DNA from: Verrucomicrobiota bacterium
Lineage (GTDB): Bacteria; Verrucomicrobiota; Verrucomicrobiia; Verrucomicrobiales; Verrucomicrobiaceae
Direction: 5' to 3'
Length of the DNA stretch: 33,617 bases
Assembly (NCBI GenBank): GCA_026397605.1
Contig: JAPLUM010000652.1
Coordinates: 1-33,617 of the forward strand
This document shows, in pieces, positions 1 through 19,600 of this stretch. The stretch's first letter is position 1. The number at the start of each line of letters is the position of its first letter. A program made the position numbers and the translations under genes. The notes below the pieces were generated by a model, which saw only the letters and a list, made by a program, of their open reading frames with translations, was not told the origin of the DNA and did no database searches.

Positions 1-3000
1 ACGATGCCGTTGACACTAGCTCCAGAATAAATCGCGTTGTTGCGGCTGCGCTCGTATTCGGTGGGTGGGTGTGCGCGGTGCCAAGCGAGCAGCGTGGAGA
101 GAACTCCTTGGGTGCCTGTCGGGGAGGTATTGTCCGCGAGCATGAGATCAACGGTGTCTGTGTCGGAGCCATCATAGCGGACCATCATGTAAAGCTGGGC
201 ACGGGCGACGATGCCTTTATCCCGATCCAGTGGCTCCCACGAATTGCCGTCAGAGAAGGATTCTGGCGCAAAGGGGTCGCTGTTGACATTGGCACCTTCA
301 TCAAAGGGAAGGTTCGAGCGCAGGCTGTTCACGGTGTCTTTGCAGGGGAAGAGATGATGAATGTCTGAGTAGTCTGGGCCTGTATCGCCGACACCGTCGC
401 TGCGTGGCCAGACGTGCTCACGATTCCAGCCGCCATTGATATTCGCAGAGGTTTTTGGCAGTGAAGCATTCGAGTAAAGCAGACGAACATTGGCGCTGGT
501 GGTCGCGTCTTCGTCGATGACCTGCATGACCTCATCCACAGTGCCATAGTCAACGACGGTGTGACCGTCGATGATGTTGTGCAGCGCGTTTTGAAGGGGT
601 GTGCCAAGCAGACCAGCAGCGCTGCTGTAGTAGTTGGCAAGGCCTACGTTTGGCGGTGTTGTGACTTCGCTGAGGGTGAGGTTCAGGAAGACCATGTGAT
701 GGTCTGTGATGGAGGTCGCATCGCTGATCGTGCCTGGGACCGTTGCAGGCCAGAAGACACCGCCGCTATTCACCACGAGGCCGTATGAGGATGGCAGGGC
801 GTAATCGACTCGGACACCACTGCTGAAGGCTGCGGTGTCATCCGGGTTGGGGCCGGTACCGCCGCCGGGGACGAAGGTGGAGTTCACCAATGGGTTCGGC
901 GTGACGGCGGTTCCGCCAATGGTTAAATTGCCGCCAATGATTCGCTTGATGGCAGGGTCGGTACTGTCGCCCTCATTGTTATCCGCGTTTTGGTCACCGC
1001 AGATGATGAAGCGTGTATTGGCTGGCAGACCACCCGAGCGAGTCGCAAACGTTTCCGTGTCATCGTAGATGTAGGCGGAGGTCGCACCGGGTGTCACGTA
1101 GTCGTTCCAGAAGCGGATTTCATCACTGTTACGGCGGCCATTGTGATCGACTCCAGCGGTCCAAGGCGCACCGGAATCAAAAACGGGCGGTGTAGGATGG
1201 CTGGCAAGGATGTGGACGGGTGTGCCGTTCACGAGGACTGGAACGTCCGCGTGATTCTTGGAGGAGAGGCGGAAGACATTCAGCTCGGCTGTGGAATACC
1301 AATCAATCGGAGTGCCGTTGGCTGGATTGTCTGGCAGATCAGCGCCTGGCATGTCTTTCCAGAGGAATTTTTGGAAGGTGCGGATGTTCGCCGTATCGAT
1401 TGGATACTTGGAAAGCACGACAAAGGCGTATTGACCAAGATGCGTGCCGAAGCCGAACGCGTCCTCACCATAACCAGCAGCTCCTGGGGTGGAAACGACG
1501 CTACCATTGTTATCGAGATCGAAACCGGAGTGAACGCCCGTGTTTGCAGGGGCAATGAAGGCGTATGGGTAATAGACTGGGTTTTCTCCGTTCTGTGCGA
1601 CTTCGAGGTAGTTCTCTTTGAAGCGCTTGAGGGCCAAGCCTTTCGCATCGTAGTCAAACTCGTTGATGAGGATGACGTCATTATTGTTGTTCTGAATGAC
1701 GCGGGCGATCTTTTTCGCCTGGTCGCTGGTGACGGTGCCGAGTTCAGTGATCAGTGCGCCCGCAGTATCCCGGAAGAGTGAGGTGTTGTAGGTAGCGGCT
1801 TTGAAGTTATTGGTCGTCGAAACGATGGTGTTGGTGACGTTGATCGTCACTTTTTCCAGCGTTGAATTGCTACCGTCAAAGGACTGCACACGTAGCTCGT
1901 GAGAACGTGGGCTCTCGAGTTGAAGCGCTGCGGGATTGGCGAGTGTGATCGCACCAGAATTTGGGTTAATGGCGAAGGCGCCCGTTTCGAATCCTTTCTC
2001 CAAGAAGCAGAGCTGGCCTCCTTCAAAGAGTGCCTTTGATGCAACGAGGCCGGTGGTGACGGAGTGGGCCTGAATGTCAAAGAGGAAGAGCGAGCCTGCT
2101 TCTTCACCGAAGAGTGTGGAGACATCGATGATGCCGGAGGATTCCCAGTTGCCAACATCGCTTGGATTCGTGTCCGTAGAGCCGAGTGGCAAGACGGTGG
2201 AGCGATCTGTCTGCGCAATACGCACCGCCGCGCCCGTCGTCGCATTGAGACGCCAGATGGAGGTCTCAAATCCAGCCGCGCCGAAGCTGCCGACTTGGTT
2301 TGACTGATCTTCCTGCACGTAGATAAAGCCGTCGTCAGCCCAGTCGAGATTGTCTGGGCAGCGCAGGCCTTCCTCAGGCGTAGCGAACTGACCGCCGCCA
2401 GCCACGTCACCATCATAGAGGATGCGCAGCGCTCCGCTGGTCGGCACGCCTGAGGCAAAGTCGATGTCGATGATGTATGTGTCGCCCCAGTTATCCAGCG
2501 GATACAATGAACCGCGTCCAGTGGAGGTGAAGGCGACCATGCTACCATCCGTCGGACTGGTGCTGAGATCTTCAGGACGCGAGAAGGAGAACGCACCTGC
2601 TGCATCAGCCTCGGCTTGCAGCGTCGTGTCATTTTTATATCCAGCGGCATCATGTCCGGCAGTGCCTGCATTGGTGGCGTTGCGCGCATTGATCGCCACC
2701 CAGGTGCCCGCGCGGGTCAGGCCGTTGCCATTGGTGCCATTGAACTGCTGCGGCGTGAGGTTGCCGTTTGTGGCTTTCCACACATAGAGCTGGCCACCGC
2801 TGAGCCCGTTGCGCTGGAGGAAAGTGCCTGCTGCATTCTTCACGCCGACATAAAGATAAAGCGGAGTGCCCTGCGCATCATCACCGAGCAGGAAGGCCAC
2901 ATGCGTCGTGTTACCCGTATCGACCAATGCCGCATTTTCCCAAGAACCACGGCCCATGTCTGGCAGCGCCCAGAAGTCGCCATTTGAGGTATCCAGTGCC

Positions 3001-5906
3001 CACATCGTGCCGCCATGCGGATGACCAAAAGCAGTCGATGTCTCTTCACCAGTGAAGTAGATACGATCCGCAAGACCACGACCAGCGCCCCAGAGATTTG
3101 GCTCAAAAAGGGAAGACGAGCACATGCGGTCAAGGCCGCCGAGTTCAAGCTGTGCCGTGCTGGTGACGACAGTGCCGCTACGATCATACATGCGAGCGAT
3201 AGCGAGACCGCTATCGACCACTTTGCGGCTGCCCTTGTCGATGTCGAAGTAAGTGACGCGAGCACCTCCCTTGGTGATAACGGTGCCATTTGCCAATGTC
3301 CAAGGATAACCCGCAGAGCCAGAGGTTGGCAGTTCGATCTCATGATTCATGAACACACGCACCGTGGTCGCATTGAGAGAATAGGCACCGAGTCCGTCCG
3401 GAGTGCCCACAGGAGAAAAAGCGCCCGCACTGGATGCATTCAATGCGCCGGTTGCTCCCTGAAAGGTATCACCCACGGTCCAGACTGGATCCACGAGGTA
3501 ACCAGCACCAGGTGTGCCCTTGATCATCGTCGAACCACCACTGCCGCCGAGGATGGCGTATTTCACACCTTCGTTGCCGATGATGGCTGGATTGAGATCA
3601 CCGACGACAGTTCCCGCCCGTGCATTTTCAGAAATGCTGAAAGGACCAAGTGCGGTGATCGGCGGTTGCGATGTGGTGAAGTCCCAGGTGGTCGTGTCCG
3701 TGAAGCCTGCATAGTCGTTTCCAGAAACGTCCTCGATAGCGCCAGCCGTGACTTGCACATAGTAAGTGTTCCCAGAAACCAGCGGACTGGTTGGATCAAT
3801 CGTCACCGTGGCATTGCTCACGGTGACTTGTGTCGAAGTGACATCAATGGCTTCCACCAGGACATTGCCACTGGTGTTAAAGATGGAGATCGTGCCGGAA
3901 GCTCCCTTCTGAACAAGTTCATTGAAGCGAATGGAAAGGTTCGAGCTGAGAGGGAATCCACTGAAGCCATCAGCTGGAGTGAATGCGGCGACCGTTGGCA
4001 CAGTGTTGTCGATGCCAGGCGTCTGATTGACGGTGAGCTTCAGTGATGGATCGCCTGGATCGAAGGTGTTGCCTTTACCCGAATAAGTGATGGCTGTGGT
4101 AGGCGTCGTAGCGGCCAGGATGATACTGAATTCAGCTCCCGCATTGAGCTGGGCGAGTAGCGCAGGTTCGACAGCACTCAGGTTAAGCGTGAAGGTGTTT
4201 GGTAGACCGCCCTGTGCCCCTGTGGTAGCCGGAGTGAAAGGGAACACTCCGAGTGAAACGGGAGCGAAGGTGTAGTTCGCGTTATTGATGCCGTTGGTTG
4301 TTGCCGTGTTAAAAGTCTTGCCCGCGAAGTTGCCGTTCATCTGATCGGTGGTGAGGAAAAACTCCAGTGTCGAGCCTGCGGCGAAGGTGCGGTTATTCGT
4401 CGTCAGCGTGTATTCCGCAGTCACGATGTTGTCGATGTTCGCCGAGCCTGGCAGCACGAAATCCACCTTGCTGAACCTGAAGTTCGCGATGCTATAGACC
4501 GCAAAGGTGCCCAAGGCGCTTCCCTCTGCATAGTGATCTGCCGAAGCGGAACCGCCGGTCGGTCTAGCTGCACCAGTCGCGGAGGTGAGAGTGGTTGCCA
4601 TGTAGGCTTGCTGAGTGATGCCAGTGGTGAAGTTCCACGTCGTAGGATCACTGATGCCTGCATAATCATTACCAGCGATGTCTTCGATGGCACCTGATGG
4701 AATTTCCAAAAAGTAACCCGTGGAGTTCACAAACGGAGTCGTAGGCGTGATCGTCACCGTGCTGCCAGCAACCACGACCTGCGTGGAAGTCACGGCAATC
4801 GTGTCAAAAATACCGCCACTGTTTTTAATGAGAATATTGCCCGTACCTTTTTTGACCGCCTCATTAAAAGTGATGGATGGCGTTGCCGAGTTAGCCACAC
4901 CGGTCGCATCGTCCAGCGGAGAAAAGCTGGTGGCAAGCGGCGCAGTCACATCAGGGGTGAGTGTCGTGAAGTTCCACGCCGCATTGCCGCTTATCCCCGC
5001 GTAGTTGTTGTTTGCGATGTCCTGGATAGCTCCAGCAGGGATTTCAATGTAGTAGCCCGTTGTGTTCGCAAACGCTGTAGCATGAGTGATCGTCATAGTG
5101 CTACCAGCAACGACGATCTGGCTCGAAGTGATGGCGATGGTTTCAAAAATCGAGTCATCGCTACTGCGCTTGATCAAGATGTTGCCCGTTGTGCCTTTTT
5201 TCACTGGTTCGTTGAAAGTGATGCTCGGAGTGGTGTTGGTCGCCACGCCTGAGGCGTTGTCGGCAGGCGAGAACGTGCTGGCGAGGGGTGCAACCGTGTC
5301 ACCGCCGCTTGCAGTTGCGTTGACTTGTAGATTGTCGATCCGGTTGTTGCCTGTGGTGGTCGTCGCGCCGCTCACAGTGTAACGAAGACGAACATTAGAT
5401 TGTCCATCGACCGCGTTGATCGCAGTCAGATCGACCAGTGGCGCAAGCGCGAAAGTGGTTGAAGTCGTTGCTGTGTTCACTCCTGCAATTGTCGTGAAGG
5501 CGCCTCCTGCGACACTGTAGGACCAGACGCCAGAGCTGAAACCTGAGGCTGTGCCACGCGTTGCAAAGCTCACAATTGGGTCAGCGAAACCAGTGAGGTT
5601 CAATTGCAACTCAATGAACGAATTGTTCCCAGCGTTGCTCACCAAACTAAGGGACTCCTCAGCCGGATCTGCGCTGAGCACGTTTAGTGTGGAGCCACCA
5701 AAGTCATCCACCAGCCCGGTGAAACCTGTTAGCGAGAGTGTTCCTGCACCTTGATTGGCTGCAATCGAAGTCGGCACACCACCAGCGCCTGGCGCACTGG
5801 CCGTGGTAATGGAAAGAGAATTAAAGTTCCAATAAGAGACGACATCTGCGATGCCGCTTTGAACTGATAAAAGCCCAATGATGAGCGTGAGGATGATTTT
5901 TTTCAT
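1..5906 (-). CDS. Giant secreted PhoX-like / EEP / endonuclease I multidomain protein (3' end beyond window)
   Basis: Open from the ATG at 5906 to the left edge, at least 1968 residues, C-terminus not seen. Order: signal peptide (1-20, MKKIILTLIIGLLSVQSGIA); beta-rich region; two adjacent SbsA-type Ig domains (about 203-308 and 314-426); another beta-rich region; a third Ig domain (about 636-745); a cadherin-like stretch (ISENARAGTVVG); a PhoX/DUF839-like propeller (about 809-1306) with FMNHE, GRGSWEN and YVGVKN; a short cadherin-like piece; an EEP domain (about 1359-1751) with LINEFD, ILASHPTPP, GDQNAD, RVDYAL and TDHHMVF; and an endonuclease I domain (from about 1753) with NREHVWP (1828-1834, His1831), DIHHLFP and RRNNAIYS-like ERSRNNAIYS. 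These families hydrolyse phosphoesters and nucleic acids; secretion implies action outside the cytoplasm. It follows btaB on the same strand after 155 nt. That all three domains are active is inference. Confidence 0.88.
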   Translation of the reverse strand, partial: MKKIILTLIIGLLSVQSGIADVVSYWNFNSLSITTASAPGAGGVPTSIAANQGAGTLSLTGFTGLVDDFGGSTLNVLSADPAEESLSLVSNAGNNSFIELQLNLTGFADPIVSFATRGTASGFSSGVWSYSVAGGAFTTIAGVNTATTSTTFALAPLVDLTAINAVDGQSNVRLRYTVSGATTTTGNNRIDNLQVNATASGGDTVAPLASTFSPADNASGVATNTTPSITFNEPVKKGTTGNILIKRSSDDSIFETIAITSSQIVVAGSTMTITHATAFANTTGYYIEIPAGAIQDIANNNYAGISGNAAWNFTTLTPDVTAPLATSFSPLDDATGVANSATPSITFNEAVKKGTGNILIKNSGGIFDTIAVTSTQVVVAGSTVTITPTTPFVNSTGYFLEIPSGAIEDIAGNDYAGISDPTTWNFTTGITQQAYMATTLTSATGAARPTGGSASADHYAEGSALGTFAVYSIANFRFSKVDFVLPGSANIDNIVTAEYTLTTNNRTFAAGSTLEFFLTTDQMNGNFAGKTFNTATTNGINNANYTFAPVSLGVFPFTPATTGAQGGLPNTFTLNLSAVEPALLAQLNAGAEFSIILAATTPTTAITYSGKGNTFDPGDPSLKLTVNQTPGIDNTVPTVAAFTPADGFSGFPLSSNLSIRFNELVQKGASGTISIFNTSGNVLVEAIDVTSTQVTVSNATVTIDPTSPLVSGNTYYVQVTAGAIEDVSGNDYAGFTDTTTWDFTTSQPPITALGPFSISENARAGTVVGDLNPAIIGNEGVKYAILGGSGGSTMIKGTPGAGYLVDPVWTVGDTFQGATGALNASSAGAFSPVGTPDGLGAYSLNATTVRVFMNHEIELPTSGSAGYPWTLANGTVITKGGARVTYFDIDKGSRKVVDSGLAIARMYDRSGTVVTSTAQLELGGLDRMCSSSLFEPNLWGAGRGLADRIYFTGEETSTAFGHPHGGTMWALDTSNGDFWALPDMGRGSWENAALVDTGNTTHVAFLLGDDAQGTPLYLYVGVKNAAGTFLQRNGLSGGQLYVWKATNGNLTPQQFNGTNGNGLTRAGTWVAINARNATNAGTAGHDAAGYKNDTTLQAEADAAGAFSFSRPEDLSTSPTDGSMVAFTSTGRGSLYPLDNWGDTYIIDIDFASGVPTSGALRILYDGDVAGGGQFATPEEGLRCPDNLDWADDGFIYVQEDQSNQVGSFGAAGFETSIWRLNATTGAAVRIAQTDRSTVLPLGSTDTNPSDVGNWESSGIIDVSTLFGEEAGSLFLFDIQAHSVTTGLVASKALFEGGQLCFLEKGFETGAFAINPNSGAITLANPAALQLESPRSHELRVQSFDGSNSTLEKVTINVTNTIVSTTNNFKAATYNTSLFRDTAGALITELGTVTSDQAKKIARVIQNNNNDVILINEFDYDAKGLALKRFKENYLEVAQNGENPVYYPYAFIAPANTGVHSGFDLDNNGSVVSTPGAAGYGEDAFGFGTHLGQYAFVVLSKYPIDTANIRTFQKFLWKDMPGADLPDNPANGTPIDWYSTAELNVFRLSSKNHADVPVLVNGTPVHILASHPTPPVFDSGAPWTAGVDHNGRRNSDEIRFWNDYVTPGATSAYIYDDTETFATRSGGLPANTRFIICGDQNADNNEGDSTDPAIKRIIGGNLTIGGTAVTPNPLVNSTFVPGGGTGPNPDDTAAFSSGVRVDYALPSSYGLVVNSGGVFWPATVPGTISDATSITDHHMVFLNLTLSEVTTPPNVGLANYYSSAAGLLGTPLQNALHNIIDGHTVVDYGTVDEVMQVIDEDATTSANVRLLYSNASLPKTSANINGGWNREHVWPRSDGVGDTGPDYSDIHHLFPCKDTVNSLRSNLPFDEGANVNSDPFAPESFSDGNSWEPLDRDKGIVARAQLYMMVRYDGSDTDTVDLMLADNTSPTGTQGVLSTLLAWHRAHPPTEYERSRNNAIYSGASVNGI
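4640..5310 (-). repeat. Two adjacent SbsA-like Ig domain repeats inside the giant nuclease gene
   Basis: Two consecutive units of about 330 bp encode closely similar Ig-like domains. Both contain the pattern SITFNE.VKKGT.GNILIK in the first half and end in a similar block (GYYIEIPAGAIQDIANNNYAG in one unit, GYFLEIPSGAIEDIAGNDYAG in the other), followed by AWNFTT or TWNFTT. A third, more diverged copy lies at about 3672-4000. They probably act as spacers or adhesion modules between enzyme domains. Confidence 0.75.
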
Positions 5907-6061
5907 GGCTTCGGATTGGTTCCGCCATGTCATTCACCTACTCTCCATCATCTGCACTTCATGCTACGTGAATCATTCGACACTGCCTGTTTTGTCACAT
6001 CTATTTATGTAACGCTGTGCGTGAGCAGATCGTCACATTCGCTCATGACGAGCACAGCGTT

Positions 6062-6670
6062 CTACGATCCATTTTTCTGGCCGATGAACATGCCATAGTG
6101 CCAAAGTCCAGTGTAGGCTGCGTGACGACTATCGACTAAAGGCGTGAACTTTGAGCGCAGGACTGGCCACAGATGACTTTCCATACGCACATGATTCACA
6201 CCCATCCAGCGGCGGAACATGTCAGACTGAGTGTGCGAAAAATCAACGACACTCATGTGCCCGCCAGCACGCAAATCTTGTGATGCGGCCTGAATGGCTT
6301 TTTCCCAACCTGGATTAAACATGGTTAGGGCATAAGAGCACAAAACGAGATCGAAGTCACCGCTGACAGGTTGATCGTAGCACTGCTGCAAGAGCGTGAC
6401 ACTGCGGACTTTTTGCTGCGCCACTTTCAGCATGTCAGAGGAAAGATCCACACCGGTAATCTCAGCCAATGGAAACAGGCGACGCAGGCTTAGCAAGTTC
6501 CGCCCGGTGCCACAACCAACTTCCAAGATGCGCTTTGGGCTTCCAATACCTGCTATGCGGTGAAGGATTCGTTCACGACCAAAGAGAAAGCTCCAGCGCG
6601 TAGCATCATAAATTTTGGCGTGCATGGCGTAGTAACCATGCAAAGCGGATTCAGGTGCTGTGGCAATCAT
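6062..6670 (-). CDS. btaB: BtaB-like S-adenosylmethionine-dependent N-methyltransferase (betaine lipid synthesis)
   Basis: 202 residues, a class I methyltransferase. Motif I (LEVGCGTGRN, residues 49-58) and the acidic post-I loop (VDLS, 74-77) bind SAM. The block YDATRWSFLFGRE (21-33) ahead of motif I resembles BtaB. In the known pathway BtaB trimethylates the amino group of diacylglyceryl-homoserine to give the betaine lipid DGTS, acting at the cytoplasmic membrane face. The ATG start overlaps the btaA stop by 4 nt (ATGA, 6667-6670), which implies translational coupling and supports the assignment. The stop is TAG at 6062. Taken alone it could be another small-molecule methyltransferase; the position directly behind btaA decides the call. 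Confidence 0.88.
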   Translation of the reverse strand: MIATAPESALHGYYAMHAKIYDATRWSFLFGRERILHRIAGIGSPKRILEVGCGTGRNLLSLRRLFPLAEITGVDLSSDMLKVAQQKVRSVTLLQQCYDQPVSGDFDLVLCSYALTMFNPGWEKAIQAASQDLRAGGHMSVVDFSHTQSDMFRRWMGVNHVRMESHLWPVLRSKFTPLVDSRHAAYTGLWHYGMFIGQKNGS

Positions 6671-7857
6671 GCGAGGACTTCTGCAAAGTGGGTGCTGCCG
6701 TAAGTGCCCACACGATCTAGGCGGTGCATGGCTTCCGTGCGTTCTGGTTGGAAGCGTAAGCGTGCACGAATCTCATCTGGAACAAAACTCAAATCCAAGC
6801 CTGCGGACCGCATCAGGATCTTCGTTCCTGGACGGCTATTGGCCAAGATCAGATCCCACTCCTCGCGTAGCGCTACGGGATCATTCCATGCCAGCCAATC
6901 CTGATGATCTAACAAGACGTAGTGTGAGTAGCTGCCAGGGTTTTCACGCAGGAAATTGGCAACAGTGCCTGAATAAGGCTTCAGGCGATCCATGCGCTGA
7001 CGCAGCATCTCTTGATTTTCGCGGCGAAGGTAATTGGGGCAGCAATGCAGGGTGTAGGAACCCGTGATATAGACACGCCAGAAATAGTTATCCTCAATGG
7101 GTAACTCGGTCATCACATGCTTCAATTTGTCTTTCACATAACCTGTGAGACCACCTGGATAAGAGTCCTCGATGAGTTTGATTTGCGGACGCGGCACACC
7201 GAGTAATGTCATCAAAGCCGGTTGACGAATGAGCCAATTCGTAAATTTACCCCAAATCTCTCCTTCGATCAGTTCATAGGCTTGAGTCTGTTCTTCCAGA
7301 GATTTGGCATCCAACAAACAGACGGCAAAGTTTTTGATGTTGGGACGCAAGCGGAACAGAGCATTTCCCATCACCCAGGCTGCTACGCCAGAGGTGCCAT
7401 GATAGTAGAACGACTTCTTTAAACTCTTCGGATTAAAAAATCCAATCCGCCGGTCCCAAAAGCCCTGCGCAGATTCGGTGAGCCGAGCACGCACGCTTTG
7501 ATAGATGGCTGTGTAATCCATGTGGGATCCGATCCCAAACATCTCAAAAAGATCATCAAAATCATTTCTCTTGATGAGGGCCATCTTTAATTCCAACAAC
7601 GCATTCTGGCGATGATTCACATCAATGGCATGAATTTGCGCTGGATTATCCAACAGGTAATCCAGAGAGTTGCACCCAGCACTGGTGATCATGACCACGC
7701 TGCTATCAGCATCTAGCTGCATGAGTTCTCGGTCGATCCGTGGATCCTCCCAGGCACAGTTATAGATTAAATTGGAGCCATGAACATGCTGAAAGAGCTT
7801 GTCGTGTGCAGCTTTTAACTTTGTGGGTGCTTTGGCTTGTTGGAGCGACTGAGTCAT
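6667..7857 (-). CDS. btaA: BtaA-like S-adenosylmethionine:diacylglycerol 3-amino-3-carboxypropyltransferase (DUF3419)
   Basis: 396 residues, the full length of the family. BtaA transfers the 3-amino-3-carboxypropyl group of SAM to diacylglycerol, the first step in making phosphorus-free betaine lipid. Visible signatures are NCAWEDPRID (33-42), the SAM-binding VVMITSAGCNSLDYLL (54-69), HAIDVNHRQNALLELK (76-91) and the later block EDSYPGGLTGYVKDKLKH. The start is the ATG at 7857, 21 nt behind the stop of the PEP-CTERM gene, with no clear Shine-Dalgarno sequence. It overlaps btaB by 4 nt. In alphaproteobacteria btaAB is induced by phosphate limitation; the secreted phosphatase neighbours fit that role here, but I found no convincing PhoB site. 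Confidence 0.92.
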   Translation of the reverse strand: MTQSLQQAKAPTKLKAAHDKLFQHVHGSNLIYNCAWEDPRIDRELMQLDADSSVVMITSAGCNSLDYLLDNPAQIHAIDVNHRQNALLELKMALIKRNDFDDLFEMFGIGSHMDYTAIYQSVRARLTESAQGFWDRRIGFFNPKSLKKSFYYHGTSGVAAWVMGNALFRLRPNIKNFAVCLLDAKSLEEQTQAYELIEGEIWGKFTNWLIRQPALMTLLGVPRPQIKLIEDSYPGGLTGYVKDKLKHVMTELPIEDNYFWRVYITGSYTLHCCPNYLRRENQEMLRQRMDRLKPYSGTVANFLRENPGSYSHYVLLDHQDWLAWNDPVALREEWDLILANSRPGTKILMRSAGLDLSFVPDEIRARLRFQPERTEAMHRLDRVGTYGSTHFAEVLA

Positions 7858-8508: not shown

Positions 8509-11500
8509 TCAATTGTTTGTCACCGAGACACGGAAGAAACGGGCCTTCTTGCCATTGACGAAAAATGGATAACGGACAGTCACCACCTGATAGGTTCCGT
8601 CATCGGCAATGATTGTCGGATTCACGACGCTGGACTGCCAAGTCGAGAGATCAGGACTGAACTGCACCGTGTAGGTGAGTCCCGCAGTGGATTGATCTTT
8701 GCGGCGACAGAAGGCAGCTCTGAAATCAACCCCCGTGCTAGTGCTAGCAATGCTGACATCAGGCTGACCGCGCTTGGTGATGACTCCGTTAGTGACTTCG
8801 AGTTTTCCAGCATCACTCGCACCGGGATTCGTGCCAAAAGCGAATTCGACAAAGTTGCTGATACCATCATTGTCGCTGTCTGAAGTCGAGTCGGCAGCGC
8901 TGTTGCGATTGAGGCCGTTGGCGATCTCGAATTCATCGGTGAGACCATCACCGTCACTGTCAGCAGCACCGGCTTTTATGATGGTGTAGTTGTCAGGTGC
9001 GCTGCCGTCGGACTGGATGAAGGTGGCGACGAGGGTGTTGCCATTGATGTCGAGATTGACAGTGCCGACTTGGCTGTAGCTGATGTACATGGCGGTGTGA
9101 TTGATCGAGCCGCCGTCGGCCTGGCCTGACATGCCGGCGGTGTTATAGATGGCTCCGAAGTGGTCACGCGGGCCGGTGAGCGGCTTCATGTAGGCTCCGT
9201 TCGGCGGAATGACAGTGCCTGCGACGGTGGCGGTAGCGGTGAAGTTATTGGCGGCGTTGCGGATGACGCCGCCTGCATTCGTGGTGAAGCCGGTGGTGCT
9301 GCCGTTGCCCGCGTTTTTCTTCATCGCGGCAGTGATGGTGCCGGTGGTGCCGTAGTTGCCATCGAGGAGCACGCTGCGCTCGTAGTTGTGGCTGTGACCC
9401 GTGAGCACAAGATCGACACCGCCTGCTTCAAGGATGGGATTGAAGTTCGTGCGCATTTCGACCATGGCACCTTCGGTGTCGCTGTCATGACTGCCTTTGG
9501 AATACGGCGGATGATGGAAGAAGGCAATGATCCAGGTCCGCGTGGTGCTGGCCAAATCCTGCCGGAGCCAGGCCGCCATCGGGCCGTCTTCGTTCACACC
9601 GGTGGTGGCAGGATTATCGACGGTGCGGAAGGAGGAGTTCGAATCGAGGCAGACGAAGTGAATGTTGCCGTAGTCGAAGCTGTAGTAGTGCTCTGTGCCG
9701 CTGGCGACGCCGCCGGCTTCACCAGCTGTGGGGAAGGTGAACATGTCGAAGTAAGGATACGAATACGGCGCACCGACGCCGCTGGGTGTAGTGTTGTTGG
9801 CGTCGTGATTGCCCAGCGTGCTCCACTGCGGCATCTTGCGGAAGATGGTGGGATACATGTTCCAGTAGCCCGTTTGGTATTCGGTGTCGGTGCCAGCATT
9901 GTAGGCATTGTCACCGAGTTGCAGATTGAAGTCAGGAACACGGCTGCCCATCCAGTTGTAATAAGCATCACGGCCCGCAGCCTGCGTCGCACTGCCGCGA
10001 CCGCAGTCACCCACGACCCAAATGCGTGTGTTCGTCGCTGTGCCGGGCGTCGGTGCGGTGCGGAAGGTGTAATCGTCCACCGTCGGTGTGGCAAAGGTGT
10101 AGCTGCCGCTGCGCACGGTGGTGATGTCCGTCGCCTCAGGTGTCAGCGTGTCTAAAGCGGAACCGACACTGTAATAGTAACGTGTGTAAGGAGTGAGGCC
10201 GGTGAGCCGCACTTCGTGATTGGTGCGGGCGACGGTTTCATCCGTGGTCAGCGTCAGCGCTGCGCTGCTAGTACCGTAGCGCACACGACCGACCACAGCT
10301 TGGCTCGTGCGCCACCGGACGACGATGCTGTTATGATTTGGCATGTTCAAATACGGGCTGCGTGTGAGTGTGCCGCTGCCAGGAGCTGCATTGACGATCA
10401 CCGTAGCGACGCTGGAGGACATGGTGTTGTTGTCGTTGTCCGTCGCACGCGCTGTGACGCTGTAGGTCGCCGCTGTGAAGCCGCTCCAGGCATATTCATA
10501 CGGCTCTGTGGTGTCCTCGCCGAGTTTGGTCGCTCCATTGTAAAACTCGACCTTGGTGATGCTGCCGTCGCTATCCGCTGCGGTGGCGCTGAGATTGATC
10601 GTGTCGCCGACATACGAAACAGTAGGCGCAGTGAATGCCACCGTCGGCGGATTGCCGATGGGGCGTGTGATGCTGACGTTATCGAGGCCGATGATTTGGT
10701 CGGGCGAGGTCGCCACGGCATTGTCATCGAGCCAGCGGATGAGCAGTGTGGCACCATCGGCCCAAGGCGTCGCGAAAGCGATTGTTTGAGGCCCCATCGT
10801 GCTCACACCGACGGTATTCGGCACGGTGGCGATGGATGGATTCAGTCCCGCAGCAGCATTCCAAGTGGTGCCGTTGTCGAGGCTGTAAAAGACGAAGTAA
10901 CCTGGCAATTCGTTCGCTGTCGCGACGCTGGTGAAGCGGCGGATGTCGTAGCTGAGGCGGATCGCATTCAGTGCGGTGCCTGTTGGGTTCGTGAGGCTGA
11001 GTTGCAGCGCGAGGAACTGCCCCGTCGTCGGTGAAGTGCCCATCGCACGATCCGTGGGCGATGCAGCGAGGGCGAAGTTATAGCCCTGTGTATTCGAGCT
11101 GGCTGTCGTCGCGGGAATCGTGGTGGAGGCGATGAGCGTGTTGTTCAGCGTGCCACCAGCAGCCGTATTGATCGCGATGCTGTCCGTGAAGGTCGAGTTG
11201 GCACCGCCAAAGACACCATAGAAGGACCAGCCGCTCGCTGGTGCGGTGCCACTGGCCATGCTGTCGAAGTTTTGCGCATAAGCCCATAGCGCCGGATCGC
11301 CGGTGACATTGACGATGCTCGATGTCGTGGTGCCAGCGTCGTTGTCGGTCGCCTTTGCCGTGAAGGTATGAGCACCAGCGGCCAGTGAGGCCACCGTGAA
11401 GGAATACGGGGCCGTGGTGTCCTCACCAAGCAGTGTTGCTCCATCAAAAAACTCCACTTTGGAGACGAAGCCATCCGTGTCGCTAGCCGTCGCATTCAGC

Positions 11501-14500
11501 GTCAGTGGCACTGCGGGTGCCACAGCAGCATTGTTGGAGGGCGAGGTGATGGACACAGTCGGTGCAGTGTTGTCGGTATTGGTCACGCTGATCGCCACAG
11601 CGGCGGAAGTCGCCGTCGTGGCTGCATTGTCCGTCGCTTTGGCAGTCAGCGAGTAGTTGCCACTGATGACGCCGGGCCAGTCATACGAATAGGGTGCGGT
11701 GGCATCTTCTCCGAGCTTAGTCGCACCATTGAAGAACTCCACCAGCGCCACACTGCCGTCGGCATCCGCTGCATCTGCCGTGATGGTGATCGCCGCGAGC
11801 GCATCAAAGCTCGCCGCAGCTGCAGGAGCCGTGATGCTGACCGTCGGCGGCACACTCGCTAACACGCCGACATTCACGATGCTGGAAAGCGCTGTCGCAC
11901 CGCTGTTATCCACCGCGATGGCGCTAAAGGCATAGCTACCGACGAGCAGGCCACTCACACTTTGCTCAAAGGGAGCCGTGGTGTCCTGACCGAGCTTGAT
12001 GCTGCCTTGATAAAACTCCACGCGGGCGATGCTGCCATCCGTATCCGCAGCATCCGCCGTGAGCGTGAAGGCCGCAGGAGCGGTGAAACTCGCGTTATTG
12101 GCCGGTGCCGTGATGGCGACGCTCGGCGCGGCATTGGCCGTCGTGCTAAAGCGGCGTGCCGTCGTGCTGGCCGTGTTCACGGTGTCGGTGACGCTCGCAT
12201 ACCATTCGTAGTGGCTGCCCGCTGCCAGTCCGGTCCAGTTCAGCGAGGCGCTGGTGCCAGCAGCGGCCACATTGGTTGTGCCGAGCGGAATCCAGTCCGT
12301 CACCGCGCTTTGCATGTTGTAGGCCAGTGTGAACTGGCTGTCCGCATCGGTTTCAAACGTGCCTGCGACTGAATTCACGGGATTCGAGACACGGTAAGTC
12401 TTCGCACTGATTGTGTTCGCCGTGGGGGAGAAGGTGAAGTAGCGCAGCCAGCCATCGCCGCCATTGGTGCGGCTTTGATAGTCTTGCAGCACGCTATGCA
12501 CCGTGCGGCCCTGGAAGGTGTCGCTGCGCTGACCTTCGCCAGCCACATGGCCGCAGAGCATGAGGAAGAAGTTTGGATTGTCCTTCAGGTTGTCATAGAT
12601 GGCTTGGCCCTGCGTGCTAAAGCTCGCGGGATTGCCCGTGTTGACGATCCAGTGACTCGTCACGATGGCGCGGCGATTGGGGAAAGCCTTCATCACCGCG
12701 TCCGCCCAGTCCAAAATGACCTGATAACTCGAAACGGCCCGCGCATCGTATTCAAGGTGCAGAATGATGAAATCCAGCCCGCTGGCGCTAAAGAGTTGGT
12801 AGTTATTATTATTGTTCGTCGGCGATTGATTGCCGCCCCAGTAGCTACGACCCGCGTAACGGCTAGCTCCGAAGAGATTGTTATAAAACACATTTGCGCC
12901 GCCAGCGTTGCCAATGCTTGTTTGATCGTGATTTCCAGGTGCAGCGCCCCAGGGGATGCCGTAAGCACGCAGCGTGGCCACTTGGTTCTCGATTCGCTTC
13001 ATCGACTCATCCGCCACGGTCCACTCAGCAGGAATGGCATCGCCATTTTGCACGATGTCGCCCATGTGACTGACAAACGCGAGATTCAGAGCATCGCGAT
13101 TATCGACGAGCCACTGCGTCTGCGCATGGAAAGTAGCCGCACGACCATTGTTACTCAGATTCTCCGAGTAGAACTGCGTATCCGGCAGCGTGGCAATCGT
13201 GAAATCAGCCCCAGGGGCTGCAGCCGTCGTTTTGCGACCATAAAAGGTCACCGTCATCGCATCGCCTTCGGGATCGCTGAGTGAAACATTCAGCGTCGTG
13301 CTTGCACCGATGCCCGTGGCATCCGCCGCAGGTGATGTCGCGGTGATCACGGGCGGCTGGTTGGAATTCGGCGTGATGGTGATGCTTACCGCGGCTGAGG
13401 TTGTGACCGCGCCGCCATTGTCCGTGGCCTTGGCCGTGAGAGAAAAGATGCCCGTGTCGGCATTCGTGCGGCTCCAGTCGTATTGATACGGCGCGGTGAG
13501 GTCTTCACCGATCTTCGTCACGCCGCTGAAGAACTCGACTTTCGCAATGCTTCCGCCCGTATCGCTTGCAGTCGCCGTGATGCTCACCATCGCGGGAGCC
13601 ATCGTTGAGAATCCATCCGCAGGTGCGGTGATCGCCACGGTCGGCGGTGTGTTCGGCGTGAATGAGCGGCCATTCAGCCAGACAGGGCTAGGGCTGGCCA
13701 CCAATGTTCCAGCAGGTGATCCAGCGACAGAGCTGACCGTCGTGGTGCCGGTGCCTTCCCCAAAGCCGTAGCGTCCGAGCAAACCTGTTCCAGCCGAGAT
13801 CTCGGCATCCTTGCCCGCGAGAATCTCAGCGCCGCTGCGCGCCACGTTCCATACGCGCACCTCGTCGATGATACCCAGGAAAGTGCCTTCGCGTGTTCCT
13901 GAAGAATTCATCGCTGTGCCGATGGCGAAGTGCTGCGTGCTGATGGCTTCGGGGACAGCGTTCGCGATGGTGTTCACACCCGCAGTGGCGCTTGATGTGT
14001 CTTTGACTCCGTTAATGTAGAGCTTCCATTTTTCTCCATCGGTCGCAGCACCGTTATAGGTCGCGGCGATATGTGTCCACTGGTTGAAGGGAATCGTGCT
14101 TGTGCCAACGATGGGGTAATTTTGGCCAGTGGTCACGCCTGATGCCGCAGCCGCTTCAAAGTCAGCGACGAGACGGTTCGAGGTGTCGATGCCCATGAAG
14201 TAATTGCAGTTCAGGCCTGCGGTTTCGGATTCGCCGCGGCCTTTCGTCACCACGGGATACGCGGTGACGCCGCCTGTTCCGGTGGAAGTCGTCGTTCCGT
14301 TGCCTGTGCGGAAAATCCAGCTTTCAAGCGTGAATACTGACGCGCCAAGGGTGCTCGTGGCAGCGCCCATCGTCACATGATTGCTCCCGCCATTGAAGAA
14401 CAAAGCGCTCTGCCCCTCCGTGGTGAAAATAAAATCATCGATGCCCATTGCCTGCTCGTTACCGCTCTCGTTTCCATCCGCGATGCGCAGCCAAAGCTCC

Positions 14501-15156
14501 GCGCCCGGTGCCCACGAAATGCCTGTGATGCGACCAGCAACACCGAGCCGATTTGCAGAAGCGTTGCCATCTAGGCTCGCGATAGTCGTTGTGTTGACCG
14601 GTGAACTAAAAGTCGCCACAGCGGTCCATGTGCCGCTCGTGACGGATGTCGCACCGAGTTGGTACTGCAGCGGCAGCGTGTGAACCGTGGTGCCGCCATT
14701 CTTGTGCCATTGCTCGCCGGTGAACATCACGTTGAAGGAGGTGATCGTCTGCGCGGTGTCATTTTTTAGACGCACGCCGTAGGCCACGGTGCCATGACCG
14801 GTCCAGTTGGAGGTCGAGCGCGAACCCAGCGCTCGGTCCGTGCTGCTAGCGCTGCCGAAGCTGAGCAGGCCGACGTTGTTGATGTTGGTGGTGGGCGACG
14901 CGCCTGTGCCATCAAAGCTGGTCGCCGTACCGCCGATGGTGCCGTTGGTGACACCATAAGTTGCGACCGCACCCGTGGTGAGGGCCGCATACCATCCCGG
15001 CAGTGTGCTGTTATCAGCCCATGCAACACCAAGGGCGTTATTCGTCGTTCCTTGCAGCGTGTTGAAGTCCTGGAAGTATGCGCCGCCGGTGTAGCTGACC
15101 TGCGCCAAGGCAGAGAGTGGCAGCACGAGGAGTGCCGTGAGGAGAGAGCGTGTCAT
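8509..15156 (-). CDS. Giant secreted protein with LamG, Ig repeats, a calcineurin-like phosphoesterase and a purple-acid-phosphatase-like domain
   Basis: 2215 residues from the ATG at 15156, chosen because it gives a clean signal peptide (MTRSLLTALLVLPLSALAQ) and overlaps the TPR gene stop by 4 nt; a 46-residue upstream extension is arginine- and histidine-rich and unlikely. Order: beta-rich region (20-245); LamG/concanavalin-like domain (about 248-490); Ig domain; calcineurin-like phosphoesterase (about 645-955: LPDTQFYS, GDIVQNGD, GNHD, SHW, CGH); three Ig domains (about 1009-1286); beta-rich region; a fifth Ig domain; FN3-like purple acid phosphatase N-domain (about 1592-1685); phosphatase core (about 1699-1952: GDCGRG, GDNAYN, GNHD, HHPPYSKG, GHSHNYER, so all metal motifs are present); calcium-type DSDGDG repeats (about 2061-2109); a C-terminal domain. 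There is no PEP-CTERM signal. Likely role: release of phosphate from organic phosphoesters outside the cell. Confidence 0.93.
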   Translation of the reverse strand: MTRSLLTALLVLPLSALAQVSYTGGAYFQDFNTLQGTTNNALGVAWADNSTLPGWYAALTTGAVATYGVTNGTIGGTATSFDGTGASPTTNINNVGLLSFGSASSTDRALGSRSTSNWTGHGTVAYGVRLKNDTAQTITSFNVMFTGEQWHKNGGTTVHTLPLQYQLGATSVTSGTWTAVATFSSPVNTTTIASLDGNASANRLGVAGRITGISWAPGAELWLRIADGNESGNEQAMGIDDFIFTTEGQSALFFNGGSNHVTMGAATSTLGASVFTLESWIFRTGNGTTTSTGTGGVTAYPVVTKGRGESETAGLNCNYFMGIDTSNRLVADFEAAAASGVTTGQNYPIVGTSTIPFNQWTHIAATYNGAATDGEKWKLYINGVKDTSSATAGVNTIANAVPEAISTQHFAIGTAMNSSGTREGTFLGIIDEVRVWNVARSGAEILAGKDAEISAGTGLLGRYGFGEGTGTTTVSSVAGSPAGTLVASPSPVWLNGRSFTPNTPPTVAITAPADGFSTMAPAMVSITATASDTGGSIAKVEFFSGVTKIGEDLTAPYQYDWSRTNADTGIFSLTAKATDNGGAVTTSAAVSITITPNSNQPPVITATSPAADATGIGASTTLNVSLSDPEGDAMTVTFYGRKTTAAAPGADFTIATLPDTQFYSENLSNNGRAATFHAQTQWLVDNRDALNLAFVSHMGDIVQNGDAIPAEWTVADESMKRIENQVATLRAYGIPWGAAPGNHDQTSIGNAGGANVFYNNLFGASRYAGRSYWGGNQSPTNNNNNYQLFSASGLDFIILHLEYDARAVSSYQVILDWADAVMKAFPNRRAIVTSHWIVNTGNPASFSTQGQAIYDNLKDNPNFFLMLCGHVAGEGQRSDTFQGRTVHSVLQDYQSRTNGGDGWLRYFTFSPTANTISAKTYRVSNPVNSVAGTFETDADSQFTLAYNMQSAVTDWIPLGTTNVAAAGTSASLNWTGLAAGSHYEWYASVTDTVNTASTTARRFSTTANAAPSVAITAPANNASFTAPAAFTLTADAADTDGSIARVEFYQGSIKLGQDTTAPFEQSVSGLLVGSYAFSAIAVDNSGATALSSIVNVGVLASVPPTVSITAPAAAASFDALAAITITADAADADGSVALVEFFNGATKLGEDATAPYSYDWPGVISGNYSLTAKATDNAATTATSAAVAISVTNTDNTAPTVSITSPSNNAAVAPAVPLTLNATASDTDGFVSKVEFFDGATLLGEDTTAPYSFTVASLAAGAHTFTAKATDNDAGTTTSSIVNVTGDPALWAYAQNFDSMASGTAPASGWSFYGVFGGANSTFTDSIAINTAAGGTLNNTLIASTTIPATTASSNTQGYNFALAASPTDRAMGTSPTTGQFLALQLSLTNPTGTALNAIRLSYDIRRFTSVATANELPGYFVFYSLDNGTTWNAAAGLNPSIATVPNTVGVSTMGPQTIAFATPWADGATLLIRWLDDNAVATSPDQIIGLDNVSITRPIGNPPTVAFTAPTVSYVGDTINLSATAADSDGSITKVEFYNGATKLGEDTTEPYEYAWSGFTAATYSVTARATDNDNNTMSSSVATVIVNAAPGSGTLTRSPYLNMPNHNSIVVRWRTSQAVVGRVRYGTSSAALTLTTDETVARTNHEVRLTGLTPYTRYYYSVGSALDTLTPEATDITTVRSGSYTFATPTVDDYTFRTAPTPGTATNTRIWVVGDCGRGSATQAAGRDAYYNWMGSRVPDFNLQLGDNAYNAGTDTEYQTGYWNMYPTIFRKMPQWSTLGNHDANNTTPSGVGAPYSYPYFDMFTFPTAGEAGGVASGTEHYYSFDYGNIHFVCLDSNSSFRTVDNPATTGVNEDGPMAAWLRQDLASTTRTWIIAFFHHPPYSKGSHDSDTEGAMVEMRTNFNPILEAGGVDLVLTGHSHNYERSVLLDGNYGTTGTITAAMKKNAGNGSTTGFTTNAGGVIRNAANNFTATATVAGTVIPPNGAYMKPLTGPRDHFGAIYNTAGMSGQADGGSINHTAMYISYSQVGTVNLDINGNTLVATFIQSDGSAPDNYTIIKAGAADSDGDGLTDEFEIANGLNRNSAADSTSDSDNDGISNFVEFAFGTNPGASDAGKLEVTNGVITKRGQPDVSIASTSTGVDFRAAFCRRKDQSTAGLTYTVQFSPDLSTWQSSVVNPTIIADDGTYQVVTVRYPFFVNGKKARFFRVSVTNN
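10385..13655 (-). repeat. Five homologous Ig-domain units within the giant phosphatase gene
   Basis: Five units of roughly 260-290 bp encode variants of the same Ig domain, with the pattern PPTVxITAP ... DTDGSIxKVEFFxGATKLGEDTTAPYxY ... LTAKATDN. Approximate positions are 13375-13655, 11865-12135, 11575-11860, 11300-11560 and 10395-10650. Three are contiguous; the others are separated by enzyme or beta-rich domains. They probably space the two phosphatase domains along an extended exoprotein. Confidence 0.8.
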
Positions 15157-16004
15157 GGTTCGATAGCGGTGGTGATGATGCGTGTTTGAGAAGGTTTCAG
15201 CGCGGCCTGCGCCTCTTCGAGCAGGCGGCTCATGGCATGCGAGCCGCGTTCGAGATTCGGCAATGCCAGGAGGTGGTCGCGCAGCGAAGTCCACGCAGCC
15301 TTGGCGTTATCGGCACGGCCTGCTTGGGCCAAAATACTCGCCCGCTTGGCCATCCACGGTTCAGGGCGCGGTGCGCAGGCCTGCATGGCATCGATTCGCT
15401 TCAGCACATCGTCATAGCGCTGCGCGGCGAGTTCGTAATCCATCGCTTTGAGCACCAATTGCGGCACCGGGCCGATCTTTTCGATTCCTGTGCTCAGAAC
15501 GCTCAGCGCCTCCTCATTCAGCTTCTGTGCCTGTAGCGCCTCCGCCGTTTCGATGACCAAATCCGGCTCCGGCACCACCGCAGCCTGCAAAGCTGCTCGG
15601 TAGTCCTGCAAAGCTGCGTCTGGCTCGCCGAGCTTGCTCAACACCCGTGCTCGCTCCACCTGCGCGAGGCCTAGTTCACGATGATTCGTGATGTAGGCAT
15701 CCAGCTCCTCCCGCGCCTGCTTTAGCATGCCACCAGCGGCCAAAGAACGTCCACGCAAATACTGCAAATCGCCGTCATCCGCACCAAGCCGATTTGCACG
15801 CTCCAGGTCAGTCAAAGCCAGCTTCCAATCTTCATGGTCGAGTTGAATGCTCGCACGCCGAATCAACAAAGCGGGATCATTTGGACGCAGCTTCATCTCT
15901 ACCTCCAATTCCTCCATCAGCTCATGAAAAGTCCCATGAGCATGGAGGTGCCCTGATGTCAGAAAGACTAAGGCAATGAAGATTCGCGTAACGTTGAACG
16001 GCAT
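15153..16004 (-). CDS. Exported TPR-repeat protein, probable first gene of the phosphoesterase/betaine-lipid operon
   Basis: 283 residues from the ATG at 16004, giving MPFNVTRIFIALVFLTSGHLHAHG, a plausible signal peptide. An in-frame TTG 11 codons upstream would put polar residues before it and is less likely. The rest is alpha-helical and made of tetratricopeptide-like repeats, for example PALLIRRASIQLDHEDWKLA, LGLAQVERARVLSKLGEPDA and TAEALQAQKLNEEALSVLST. TPRs are protein-binding scaffolds and no catalytic domain is visible. The stop overlaps the giant phosphatase start by 4 nt (ATGA), so the two are probably translationally coupled. The protein may assist assembly or export of its neighbour, which is inference from position only. 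No clear Shine-Dalgarno sequence is visible. Confidence 0.8.
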   Translation of the reverse strand: MPFNVTRIFIALVFLTSGHLHAHGTFHELMEELEVEMKLRPNDPALLIRRASIQLDHEDWKLALTDLERANRLGADDGDLQYLRGRSLAAGGMLKQAREELDAYITNHRELGLAQVERARVLSKLGEPDAALQDYRAALQAAVVPEPDLVIETAEALQAQKLNEEALSVLSTGIEKIGPVPQLVLKAMDYELAAQRYDDVLKRIDAMQACAPRPEPWMAKRASILAQAGRADNAKAAWTSLRDHLLALPNLERGSHAMSRLLEEAQAALKPSQTRIITTAIEP

Positions 16005-16301: not shown

Positions 16302-16694
16302 ATGAGCACATCGATCACCTCTCCACCGCGGCCTAGTGATAGTGAACTGTCCATTCTTCAGGTTCTTTGGCAACGTGGCCCATCTACGGTTAGACAGGTA
16401 CATGAAGTCCTTGAGCGGGAAACGGGTTACACCACGATAATGAAGCTTATGCAGCTCATGGCCGAGAAAGGCCTCGTCGAGCGCGATGAGGAAAATCGTG
16501 CGCATCTCTACCATGCGGCGGTCAAACAGGAGGCAATCGAAAAGGGTCTAGTGCGCCGGATGCTGGATAACGCTTTCGCCGGTTCTGCTGCAAAGTTAGC
16601 CATGCGTGCTCTGAGCACGAAGAAGCCCAGTGCGAAAGAACTCTCCGAACTCCGCACGTTGATCGACTCCTTGGAGAAAGGCGGCAAGTCATGA
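16302..16694 (+). CDS. blaI: BlaI/MecI-family winged-helix transcriptional repressor
   Basis: 130 residues. The winged-helix domain (about 10-75) has the family pattern SDSELSILQVLWQRGPSTVRQVHEVL, then GYTTIMKLMQLMAEKGLV and a wing RDEENRAHLYHA; the C-terminal helices would dimerise. BlaI-type repressors bind palindromes as dimers and are inactivated by proteolysis through their partner membrane protease, encoded immediately downstream with a 4-nt overlap (ATGA, 16691-16694). I start it at the ATG at 16302 because an upstream in-frame TTG extension would translate the operators and does not resemble the family. No ribosome binding site is visible, so translation may be leaderless. What it senses is probably not a beta-lactam, given the partner's architecture. 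The symbol is given by family, not proven role. Confidence 0.92.
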   Translation: MSTSITSPPRPSDSELSILQVLWQRGPSTVRQVHEVLERETGYTTIMKLMQLMAEKGLVERDEENRAHLYHAAVKQEAIEKGLVRRMLDNAFAGSAAKLAMRALSTKKPSAKELSELRTLIDSLEKGGKS

Positions 16695-19600
16695 GCACCC
16701 TCGGACTCGATCCCCTGACTGTGGAGCGCCTCGCGTGGACATTGATCCACTTTGCGTGGCAGGGCACGGCCATCGCCATGCTTCATGGGCTCACACAGGT
16801 CTTGTTGAGGCGTCAAAGCTCAGGCAGCCGATATATGGCAGCGTGTCTGATGCATGCCTTGTGTTTAGCGTGTGTGTTCTCGACTTTTATAGGGCTCAAA
16901 CCAGCCCTAGAACCTGCCGCGCCTATTTCGCTGCCAGTGGCTGAACGCACCATCTCCGCTTCGAAAGTGGCTTTGGTCGCGGAGACAGCTGTGTTGGAAC
17001 CCAGTGGCGTTGTTCATTCTGTTTCTATCGTTTCCAGATCAGAAGTGCCATGGCAACGCTGGGCGGTCATTGCTTGGATGGTAGGCGTTTTGGCCTTGAG
17101 TGCTCGACTTGGTTTTGGCTGGTTCGGATTGCGACGTTTAAAGCGTAACGCTCTGGTTTTAACGGATGCATTTTGGTTGCGGCGCCTTGCTGACTTGTCA
17201 GAAAAGCTCGGCGTGCGGAACTGTGTGTCACTCATGACGAGCACCACCGTGGACAGCCCGATGACCATGGGATGGTGGCGGCCTGTGATCCTGCTGCCGG
17301 CCTCGATGCTCACAAATATTCCACGCGAACAGATGGAAATGATTCTCGCTCACGAGCTCGCGCACATCCTGCGTGGTGATTTCATCATGCATGCTTTGCA
17401 ATGCGGCATCGAGACTTTGTTGTTCTTTCATCCCGTCGTCTGGTGGATCGGTGCTGATATGCGGCGGCTGCGAGAGGAAAGCTGCGACGATTTAGCACTC
17501 AGCTGCGGTCAGCGTGAAGATTTGGCCCGGGCGCTTCTAGCCCTGGAGCAGGCACGTTTGCCCGCCCTTGCTCAAGGAGCCGGTGGTAACAACGCCCTCG
17601 CCCGTGTGCGTCGGCTGCTGGGTGTAAGTACGCCTCCGCCTCGCTGGAAAGGCACACTCGGCGGCATACTTGCGTGCCTGCTACTTTTCAGCATGCTTAT
17701 TCACACGGCCCTTGCGGCAGAGGTGATCACAGTGAAGCCCGGAGAGTCTATCCAGGCTGCGCTGGACGCCGCGCCAGATGGTGCTGTTATCAAGATCGCC
17801 CCAGGTGTGTATGCCGAGCGCATCACGATTAAGAAACCCGTCACTCTGGTGGGCGCAGCTGATGGCAAAACCATTCTGCGCCCGGATAAACCTGAGCCAG
17901 GTGTCACACCAGAGACCACAGCTGCCGCATTCAAGCAGTGGAAGGAGGCCTCAACGGATGAAGATCGGCTGAAATATGCCCTCGCCCTCTCCAATAAATA
18001 CCAGCGGCCAACTTTGTTGGTCGAAAAGACTCAAAACGTCATTCTACGCGGACTGCGGATCCAGGGTATAGAGCCCAAAGGTGAAAATGACAGCAATGGC
18101 CTGGCCATGTTAGCCAAGGTTAATGCCTCCCAGGTTGTTATCGAAGAGTGCATGTTTGTCGGACCGTTTGCCAACGGTATAGGCATTCTCGATGGCTCCA
18201 AGGTGCGCATGAAAAAATCACTTGTCGCTGCTATCTGGGGGACTGGTCTGGAGATCAGCCGGGGCCTGCTTGGCACTGGCACACCACCTACCGTTGACAT
18301 TGAAGAATGCGACCTGCGCAACTGCTATCACCGCTGCATCACCATTGGCAGCGGCTGTGACAACGTGAGCATTCGTCGTAGCCTCATCTCCGGCTCTGCA
18401 TGGCATGGCATCCGCTACGATCACGCCTCACCTAGCATTGAGGGGAATATCATCTTCGCCAATGCACGCAGCGGCATTTACGCCAATGGCGAGACTCAAG
18501 CAAAAGTGACTGGCAATCTGTTTCATGGCAATGAGATGGGTGGAGTCTCCTGCTGGTTTGCCAATCACGATACTTTTGAGCGCAACACCTTCGCCGGTAA
18601 CCTGCGCGAAGGTGTCAGTGTGCTTGGCGGCTCAAAGCCAACCTTCCGTCAAAACATCTTTGCGCACAATCCGCTCGGACTCGTTCTTAGCATGATCAAC
18701 AACGACAGAACAAAGGCCATGGGTGAGGTCATTTCCGAGAACAATGTCTTCTGGAAGAATGGCCAGGATGAAAAACTACCGGACGGAGCACGCGAAGCGG
18801 ATCCAAAGTTTTTCGATGTTGAAGCAAAGGACTTCCGCCTCGCTCTCGATTCTCCTTTGCGTGCTGAAATGATTGGCGCGGCTGACCTACCCACTCCCAC
18901 CAGCCCCTGGCCAATCCAGCCAGAAGAAAAAGCCATGATTCCAGCCACAGCGACCCGAAACTACAGCGACTGGCAGAAGCCAGGTCAGCCCAGCGCTGCC
19001 TCCGTTGCTGCTGAAGGGGCTTACCAGCAGGCACGCACCGACTGTGATCCCTGGGTGAAGGACGCACTTCAAATCGACAACCCCGCCAAACGTAGCGCCG
19101 CCATCGCTACCATCCGCCAAGGCATCACCAGCAGTGATCTGCTCACTCAGTTGAAGGCCATCCTTGCCTTTAACCGCATTGGCGTCGTCGAGTTCGACCG
19201 CGAGTCTTTCCGTGAACCACTGCTTCCTCTTTTAGAAAACAGCAATGCGCATCTTAGCATCGGTGCCTGCCGTGGGCTCAGAGCCTGCGGCTACCAAGAC
19301 GGTGATTTCAACCGCATCCTGAAAGTCGCCGCCACGGATGATCCCGCTGTCCTGGAAAACATCACGCCCTACCTCGTCGAAGCAGCGAAGAATCAACTGC
19401 AGCCAGGCATGGAGCCAGTATTCATGAAAGTGCTCTCGCTACCCATGATCGACCTGGTTCGTAGAGGGAAGACGGCCGAATCCCTCGCACGTGATACCAT
19501 GAGCGCTCTTGGTCGTATCGATCTGAGCCCTGCGGTAAAAGCTCGCGTTCTTGAACTTGCACGTGATTCGGAGCCCCGCATTTACCGTCTCGCCTTTCAT

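Follow-up and report, generated by a model that had tools for sequence, protein, structure and literature searches.

An Apparently Secreted Verrucomicrobiales Protein Combining a PhoX-Type Propeller with EEP and Endonuclease I Domains, and Its Probable Role in Phosphorus Scavenging

The Fusion Gene and Its Product

The window, that is, the whole stretch of DNA analyzed here (33,617 nucleotides), is an entire contig (G000:C553) of a Verrucomicrobiota assembly of 6.2 Mb in 900 contigs. A giant fusion ORF lies on its reverse strand (5933..3, 1977 codons) and runs off the contig end without a stop codon. The encoded protein has the domain order of signal peptide, Big_5 repeats, PhoX-type propeller, EEP, and endonuclease I. 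Because the nine residues upstream of MKK vary among the orthologs, and one ortholog (L044) has an in-frame stop ahead of MKK, the ATG at 5906 (MKKII...), which agrees with the end coordinate given in the sequence-only reading, is the likely start codon. It would open an N-terminal Sec-type signal peptide, MKKIILTLIIGLLSVQSGIA (5844..5906, reverse strand; approximately residues 10–30 of the ORF), predicted from the sequence and kept in the orthologs as MKKIILALI.. or MKRPLLSLL... The protein is thus apparently secreted, as the sequence-only reading had assumed.

The signal peptide is followed by an Ig-like spacer with three Big_5 repeats (3669..5306, reverse strand; approximately residues 210–755), to which Pfam PF13205 matches with 165 bits in three stretches. 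A short cadherin-like linker may be present at 1836..1991 (reverse strand; residues 1315–1366), where the match to PF00028 is weak (19.3 bits, under the cut-off of 28.8). The window lacks the C-terminus of the fusion protein: in the orthologs, the sequence past the cut point reads QGNRNPFIDFPQ, completing the endonuclease domain, and then continues into a TSP3/Ig-like C-terminal region. Complete orthologs are 1981–2135 aa in length, and the same domain order is encoded by uninterrupted ORFs of 1989–2135 codons at 12 loci.

That three phosphoester-cleaving domains are joined in a single polypeptide, the central claim of the initial reading, is borne out by the HMM search that it had proposed: PF05787, PF03372, and PF04231 each score above their curated cut-offs, the motifs are intact, and the architecture is found in about 12 species. 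In each of the three domains, orthologs differ mainly at the third position of the codon, with for example 19, 7, and 136 differences at positions 1, 2, and 3, respectively, of the PhoX part in comparison with L044, which fits purifying selection on every domain. A DNA-level search of plasmid records gave short matches of 65–74% identity and nothing more.

The PhoX-Type Propeller

The beta-propeller occupies 1899..3596 on the reverse strand (residues 780–1345) and is assigned to the PhoX type by PF05787, a PDB profile match, an AF2 model, and hhalign (97.8%). When residues 780–1300 are scanned alone, PF05787 gives 55.3 bits (E 8e-15, cut-off 24), and the scores in four complete orthologs are 49–56 bits; the match spans positions 232–472 of the 515 in the model, with the N-terminal part of the propeller lying outside it. 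PhoX is absent from the hmmscan listing of the whole truncated protein and appears with the propeller alone or with a complete ortholog. Automatic annotation could therefore miss this PhoX domain, and for the same reason inventories of phosphorus-cycling genes may have gaps.

The identity between the propeller and PhoX is 17–18%. A family profile searched against PDB has PhoX of Pseudomonas fluorescens (3zwu) as its sole match (E 4e-9). The structure prediction that the initial reading had called for points in the same direction. The AF2 model (pLDDT 83.7, pTM 0.86) finds PhoX 3zwu as its best PDB match in Foldseek with E 7.8e-21, far ahead of the next fold at 3e-6. With VIA-align 2, superposition on PhoX 4a9v gives Z 25.9 and an rmsd of 3.7 over 421 residues, as against Z 20–24 for generic propellers (up to 23.7 over 270 residues).

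Motifs along the propeller include NHE (863–865, part of MNHE at 3350–3339 on the reverse strand), RMCSSS with C938, GEE (963–964), SWEN with E999, GDD with D1019, SRPED with R1119 and E1121, PDN with D1194, and furthermore QED, WESSG, and QAH. E865, E999, D1019, R1119, E1121, and D1194 align with E90, E273, D292, R385, E387, and D479 of PhoX, respectively. The equivalents of E90, E273, D292, and E387 are identical in all of the 46 propellers compared, and those of R385 (K in the remaining one) and D479 in 45 of them. The concern that the propeller might lack metal and phosphate ligands is answered accordingly: all six acidic and arginine residues are present, each in at least 45 of the 46 propellers. 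An invariant cysteine, C938, precedes Glu-Glu as in PhoX, while neither MAFFT nor hhalign pairs it with Cys179 of PhoX, a presumed metal ligand. R385 and D292 are described among the metal-binding or active-site residues of PhoX (PMC11098088).

The domain is therefore alike to P. fluorescens PhoX (3zwu/4a9v) in propeller fold, Pfam score, and the six aligned residues, whereas it differs in its low sequence identity and in being one domain of a 2000-residue protein; C938 is a candidate equivalent of Cys179. Psip1, an Fe/Ca phosphatase of marine picocyanobacteria, is likewise described as an enzyme with a propeller and with metal residues like those of PhoX, and as having no overall sequence identity to PhoX (PMC11098088).

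EEP and Endonuclease I Domains

The EEP domain (639..1793, reverse strand; residues 1381–1765) matches PF03372 with 81.3 bits against a cut-off of 24.5. Its motifs GDQNAD (998–981) and TDHHMVF (707–687), both on the reverse strand, vary little or not at all among 12 orthologs, and the catalytic residues N43, E85, D307, N309, D370, D404, and H405 (numbering of alignment A3) are invariant in the same 12. EEP is a functionally broad superfamily. Since lipid and inositol-phosphate phosphodiesterases are also included in it, the nucleic-acid substrate proposed for this domain is deduced from its partner domain.

That partner, the endonuclease I domain (3..593, reverse strand; residues 1781–1977), is cut by the contig end and still matches PF04231 with 91.7 bits; complete orthologs reach 101–110 bits (110 in P0002). 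NREHVWP (425–405, reverse strand) is followed by DIHHLFP...N..R, for which the pattern among the orthologs is DxHHLFP...N..R. NREHVWP as well as H519, N529, and R532 (alignment numbering) are invariant in the 12 orthologs, and by profile this part matches the Vibrio nuclease 1oup. An AF2 model of the EEP and endonuclease I domains, made with 12 close sequences, has a pLDDT of 31.5 and supports no structural statement.

Compared with Vibrio nuclease Vvn (1oup) and EndA, the endonuclease I domain shares PF04231 and the NREHVWP and DxHxLxP..N..R pattern; those are small single-domain enzymes, whereas here it is the C-terminal domain of a fusion. Extracellular nucleases of the ExeM/NucH type are, like the window protein, secreted and EEP-containing. 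In NCBIfam, neither the ExeM/NucH model nor any other nuclease model matches the window protein, and Pfam shows no lamin-tail domain in it.

Gene Neighborhood

Directly upstream of the fusion gene, on the same strand, lies a methyltransferase gene (6062..6670; Methyltransf_25, 63 bits), called btaB-like from its position beside btaA. The btaA gene itself (DUF3419, betaine-lipid synthesis) is at 6667..7857 (reverse strand; PF11899, 335.8 bits). A small PEP-CTERM-like protein and a second multi-phosphoesterase giant of 2261 aa (8509..15294, reverse strand) are also encoded upstream on this strand. The latter matches PF00149 in two stretches, PF16656, PF17957, and PF13385, and is composed by Pfam of LamG, five Big_7 repeats, two calcineurin-like domains, and a purple acid phosphatase N-domain. 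In the four closest orthologs, btaA-btaB likewise adjoins the fusion gene. In a distant ortholog (L039), btaA-btaB is found within 4 kb, beside genes for a glycosyltransferase and an LpxH-like phosphoesterase, the whole set lying within 4–8 kb. In another case (L040), the neighbor is a giant with PhoD and phytase-like domains, and the neighbors of other orthologs include a giant with phytase-like and SdiA-regulated domains.

The btaA-btaB pair and the giant with two metallophosphatase domains upstream point to phosphate starvation, and we infer that the fusion gene may be regulated by it. Replacement of phospholipids by non-phosphorus lipids is a known response to phosphorus deficiency (PMC4796936), and both the synthesis of betaine lipids and phosphatases belong to the usual repertoire of phosphate starvation (PMC4796936; PMC9846622). 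Furthermore, a PhoX-like gene and a GDPD and phytase gene, putative counterparts of the present propeller proteins, are among the genes strongly induced by phosphate limitation in Nodularia (PMC9846622). As a marker of such a regulon, the palindrome GTGWCGAANSATTCACG / GTGTCGAATGATTCACG upstream of the gene (5967–5983, reverse strand) is not supported: look-alikes are seen by eye upstream of orthologs, and genome-wide it is not enriched (16 genome hits vs. 9 control hits).

Distribution of the Architecture

The three-domain order is found at 12 loci, belonging to 12 GTDB species and to separate assemblies. Nearly all of the genome records concerned bear titles of Verrucomicrobia-type MAGs, several of them Verrucomicrobiaceae or Prosthecobacter; one is titled Akkermansia muciniphila, which is probably a matter of naming. 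Within the order, 13 of 240 sampled Verrucomicrobiales genomes carry the full architecture, their ORFs including the EEP-endonuclease part at full length; fragments at contig ends are present in two further genomes of the same sample. In a phylum-wide sample of 240 genomes, the propeller is rare. No published characterization of a PhoX-nuclease fusion was found in the open-access literature searched, and a description elsewhere is possible.

Related Fusions of Phosphohydrolases

Relatives of the propeller are fused to other phosphohydrolases in a variety of ways. They are combined with GDPD and phytase-like domains (L046, L060, and L078), with PhoA (L063), with PhoD (L062), and with choice_anch_I (L055, L065, and L066). 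In a cyanobacterial (Acaryochloris MAG) protein of 2193 aa (L048, 4907–11485, forward strand), PhoA, GDPD, phytase-like, and PhoX domains are found in one chain. Cyanobacterial PhoX-like proteins and the giants L046, L048, and L060 have the closest propellers outside Verrucomicrobia (approximately 45–53% identity); these giants are likewise fused to other phosphohydrolases, and none of those scanned for domains has EEP or endonuclease I.

Similar diversity is observed for the EEP domain. In Verrucomicrobiales, EEP domains related to that of the window occur alone or in giant proteins, such as PhoX-EEP (L133), PhoX-EEP-phytase-like (L092), and phytase-like-EEP-choice_anch_I (L130 and L131). An ORF of 4427 aa in another Verrucomicrobiales genome (L129, 2855–16135, forward strand) has the order PhoX-PhoX-EEP-choice_anch_I. 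Similarly, a GDPD-EEP-phytase-like protein of Indioceanicola profundi (WP_225890063.1) has an EEP domain 47% identical to that of the window, similarly placed alongside other phosphohydrolases; it differs in its GDPD and phytase-like partners, in having PhoX as a separate, adjoining gene, and in being without endonuclease I.

In FastTree phylogenies, both the propellers and the EEP domains of L092, L129, and L133 are placed outside the three-domain clade (with midpoint rooting, so that the direction is uncertain), which suggests at least two separate joinings of PhoX with EEP. The initial reading had singled out the PhoX propeller as the unusual element, and this needs correction. Propellers of a different subclade also form PhoX-EEP fusions in Verrucomicrobiales, and other members of the propeller family are joined to GDPD, phytase-like, PhoA, or PhoD domains, while the full combination of PhoX, EEP, and endonuclease I was seen in this lineage alone among the selected proteins that were domain-scanned. 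Because of this recurrence, the window protein is a new domain combination of known enzyme families within a wider pattern, not a new kind of enzyme; the wider pattern of giant secreted multi-phosphohydrolases is apparently undescribed. In addition to the fusion gene, the genome has a second PhoX-like gene (L033, 6428–7723, reverse strand), a frame of 431 aa whose C-terminus is shorter than those of stand-alone relatives such as L016.

Proposed Function

Extracellular nucleic acids constitute a large phosphorus pool, whose use is usually pictured as the work of separate nucleases, nucleotidases, and phosphatases. We propose, with a probability of roughly 0.7, that the fusion protein is a secreted multi-enzyme phosphorus scavenger, which strips phosphate from extracellular nucleic acids under scarcity. 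The signal peptide would direct export; the Ig-like repeats would space the domains, and a surface or sorting element might be provided by the TSP3/Ig-like region at the C-terminus. Endonuclease I would convert extracellular DNA or RNA to 5′-phosphorylated oligonucleotides, EEP would cleave further phosphodiester bonds (as an exo- or endonuclease, or as a phosphodiesterase), and the PhoX propeller would remove terminal phosphate from nucleotides through an Fe/Ca-type center. The freed phosphate would then be taken up, while btaA-btaB would swap phospholipids for betaine lipids. This nucleic-acid route is the simplest reading because the neighbor of the EEP domain is clearly a nuclease domain and because nucleotides are substrates of PhoX-type enzymes in some species at least, as cited for S. 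meliloti PhoX in PMC5768637.

Both of these observations weigh against a broader organophosphorus scavenger, in which each domain would have substrates of its own (nucleic acids for endonuclease I, lipid head groups or inositol phosphates for EEP, and any phosphomonoester for PhoX) and the fusion would serve only to deliver several phosphohydrolases in a single export event. We regard it as rather unlikely, with the following in its favor: in several phyla, the same propeller and EEP families have GDPD, phytase-like, PhoA, PhoD, and choice_anch_I domains as partners, these varied pairings look more like a phosphohydrolase toolkit than a single pathway, and the EEP superfamily is broad in function. 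Far less probable is a nuclease remodeling biofilm or extracellular DNA, with the propeller as a binding or structural domain of little catalysis. Secreted nucleases of these families are often involved in biofilm turnover, and six-bladed propellers are also common as non-phosphatase scaffolds, as the Z of 20–24 for generic propellers reflects, but 46 sequences retain the PhoX residues in an unchanged order and the gene lies beside genes of the phosphate-starvation type.

A chimeric contig or a frameshift joining separate genes would be suspected from the fragmentation of the MAG into 900 contigs and from an ORF that runs off the contig end. Uninterrupted full-length ORFs in the same order at 12 loci of separate assemblies, together with divergence dominated by third positions, leave this a negligible chance, and the recurrence of the architecture in 13 of the 240 genomes of the order rules out a chimeric assembly.

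The phosphorus-scavenging reading has a bolder extension, in which endonuclease I, EEP, and PhoX work as an assembly line that degrades the bound polymer all the way to free phosphate, without releasing intermediates as the initial reading had suggested, and in which shuffling of one set of modules has produced a class of giant secreted phosphohydrolases common to Verrucomicrobia and Cyanobacteria. As a whole, this is quite doubtful. One exported chain with all of the steps would couple DNA degradation to phosphate release, and reshuffling of a module set comprising PhoX, EEP, phytase-like, GDPD, PhoA, PhoD, choice_anch_I, and endonuclease I would give a testable prediction for many large proteins that are unannotated.

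Other ORFs in the Window

Several other ORFs of the window also combine domains of different types. A 497-aa ORF (31770–33263, reverse strand) joins an NYN domain of YacP type to a serine hydrolase domain of beta-lactamase type. In a 725-aa ORF (21539–23716, forward strand), a Ser/Thr protein kinase domain precedes a domain resembling signal peptidase S26. In the third case, an M56 peptidase of BlaR1 type is fused to a right-handed beta-helix region in a protein of 1083 aa (16691–19942, forward strand).
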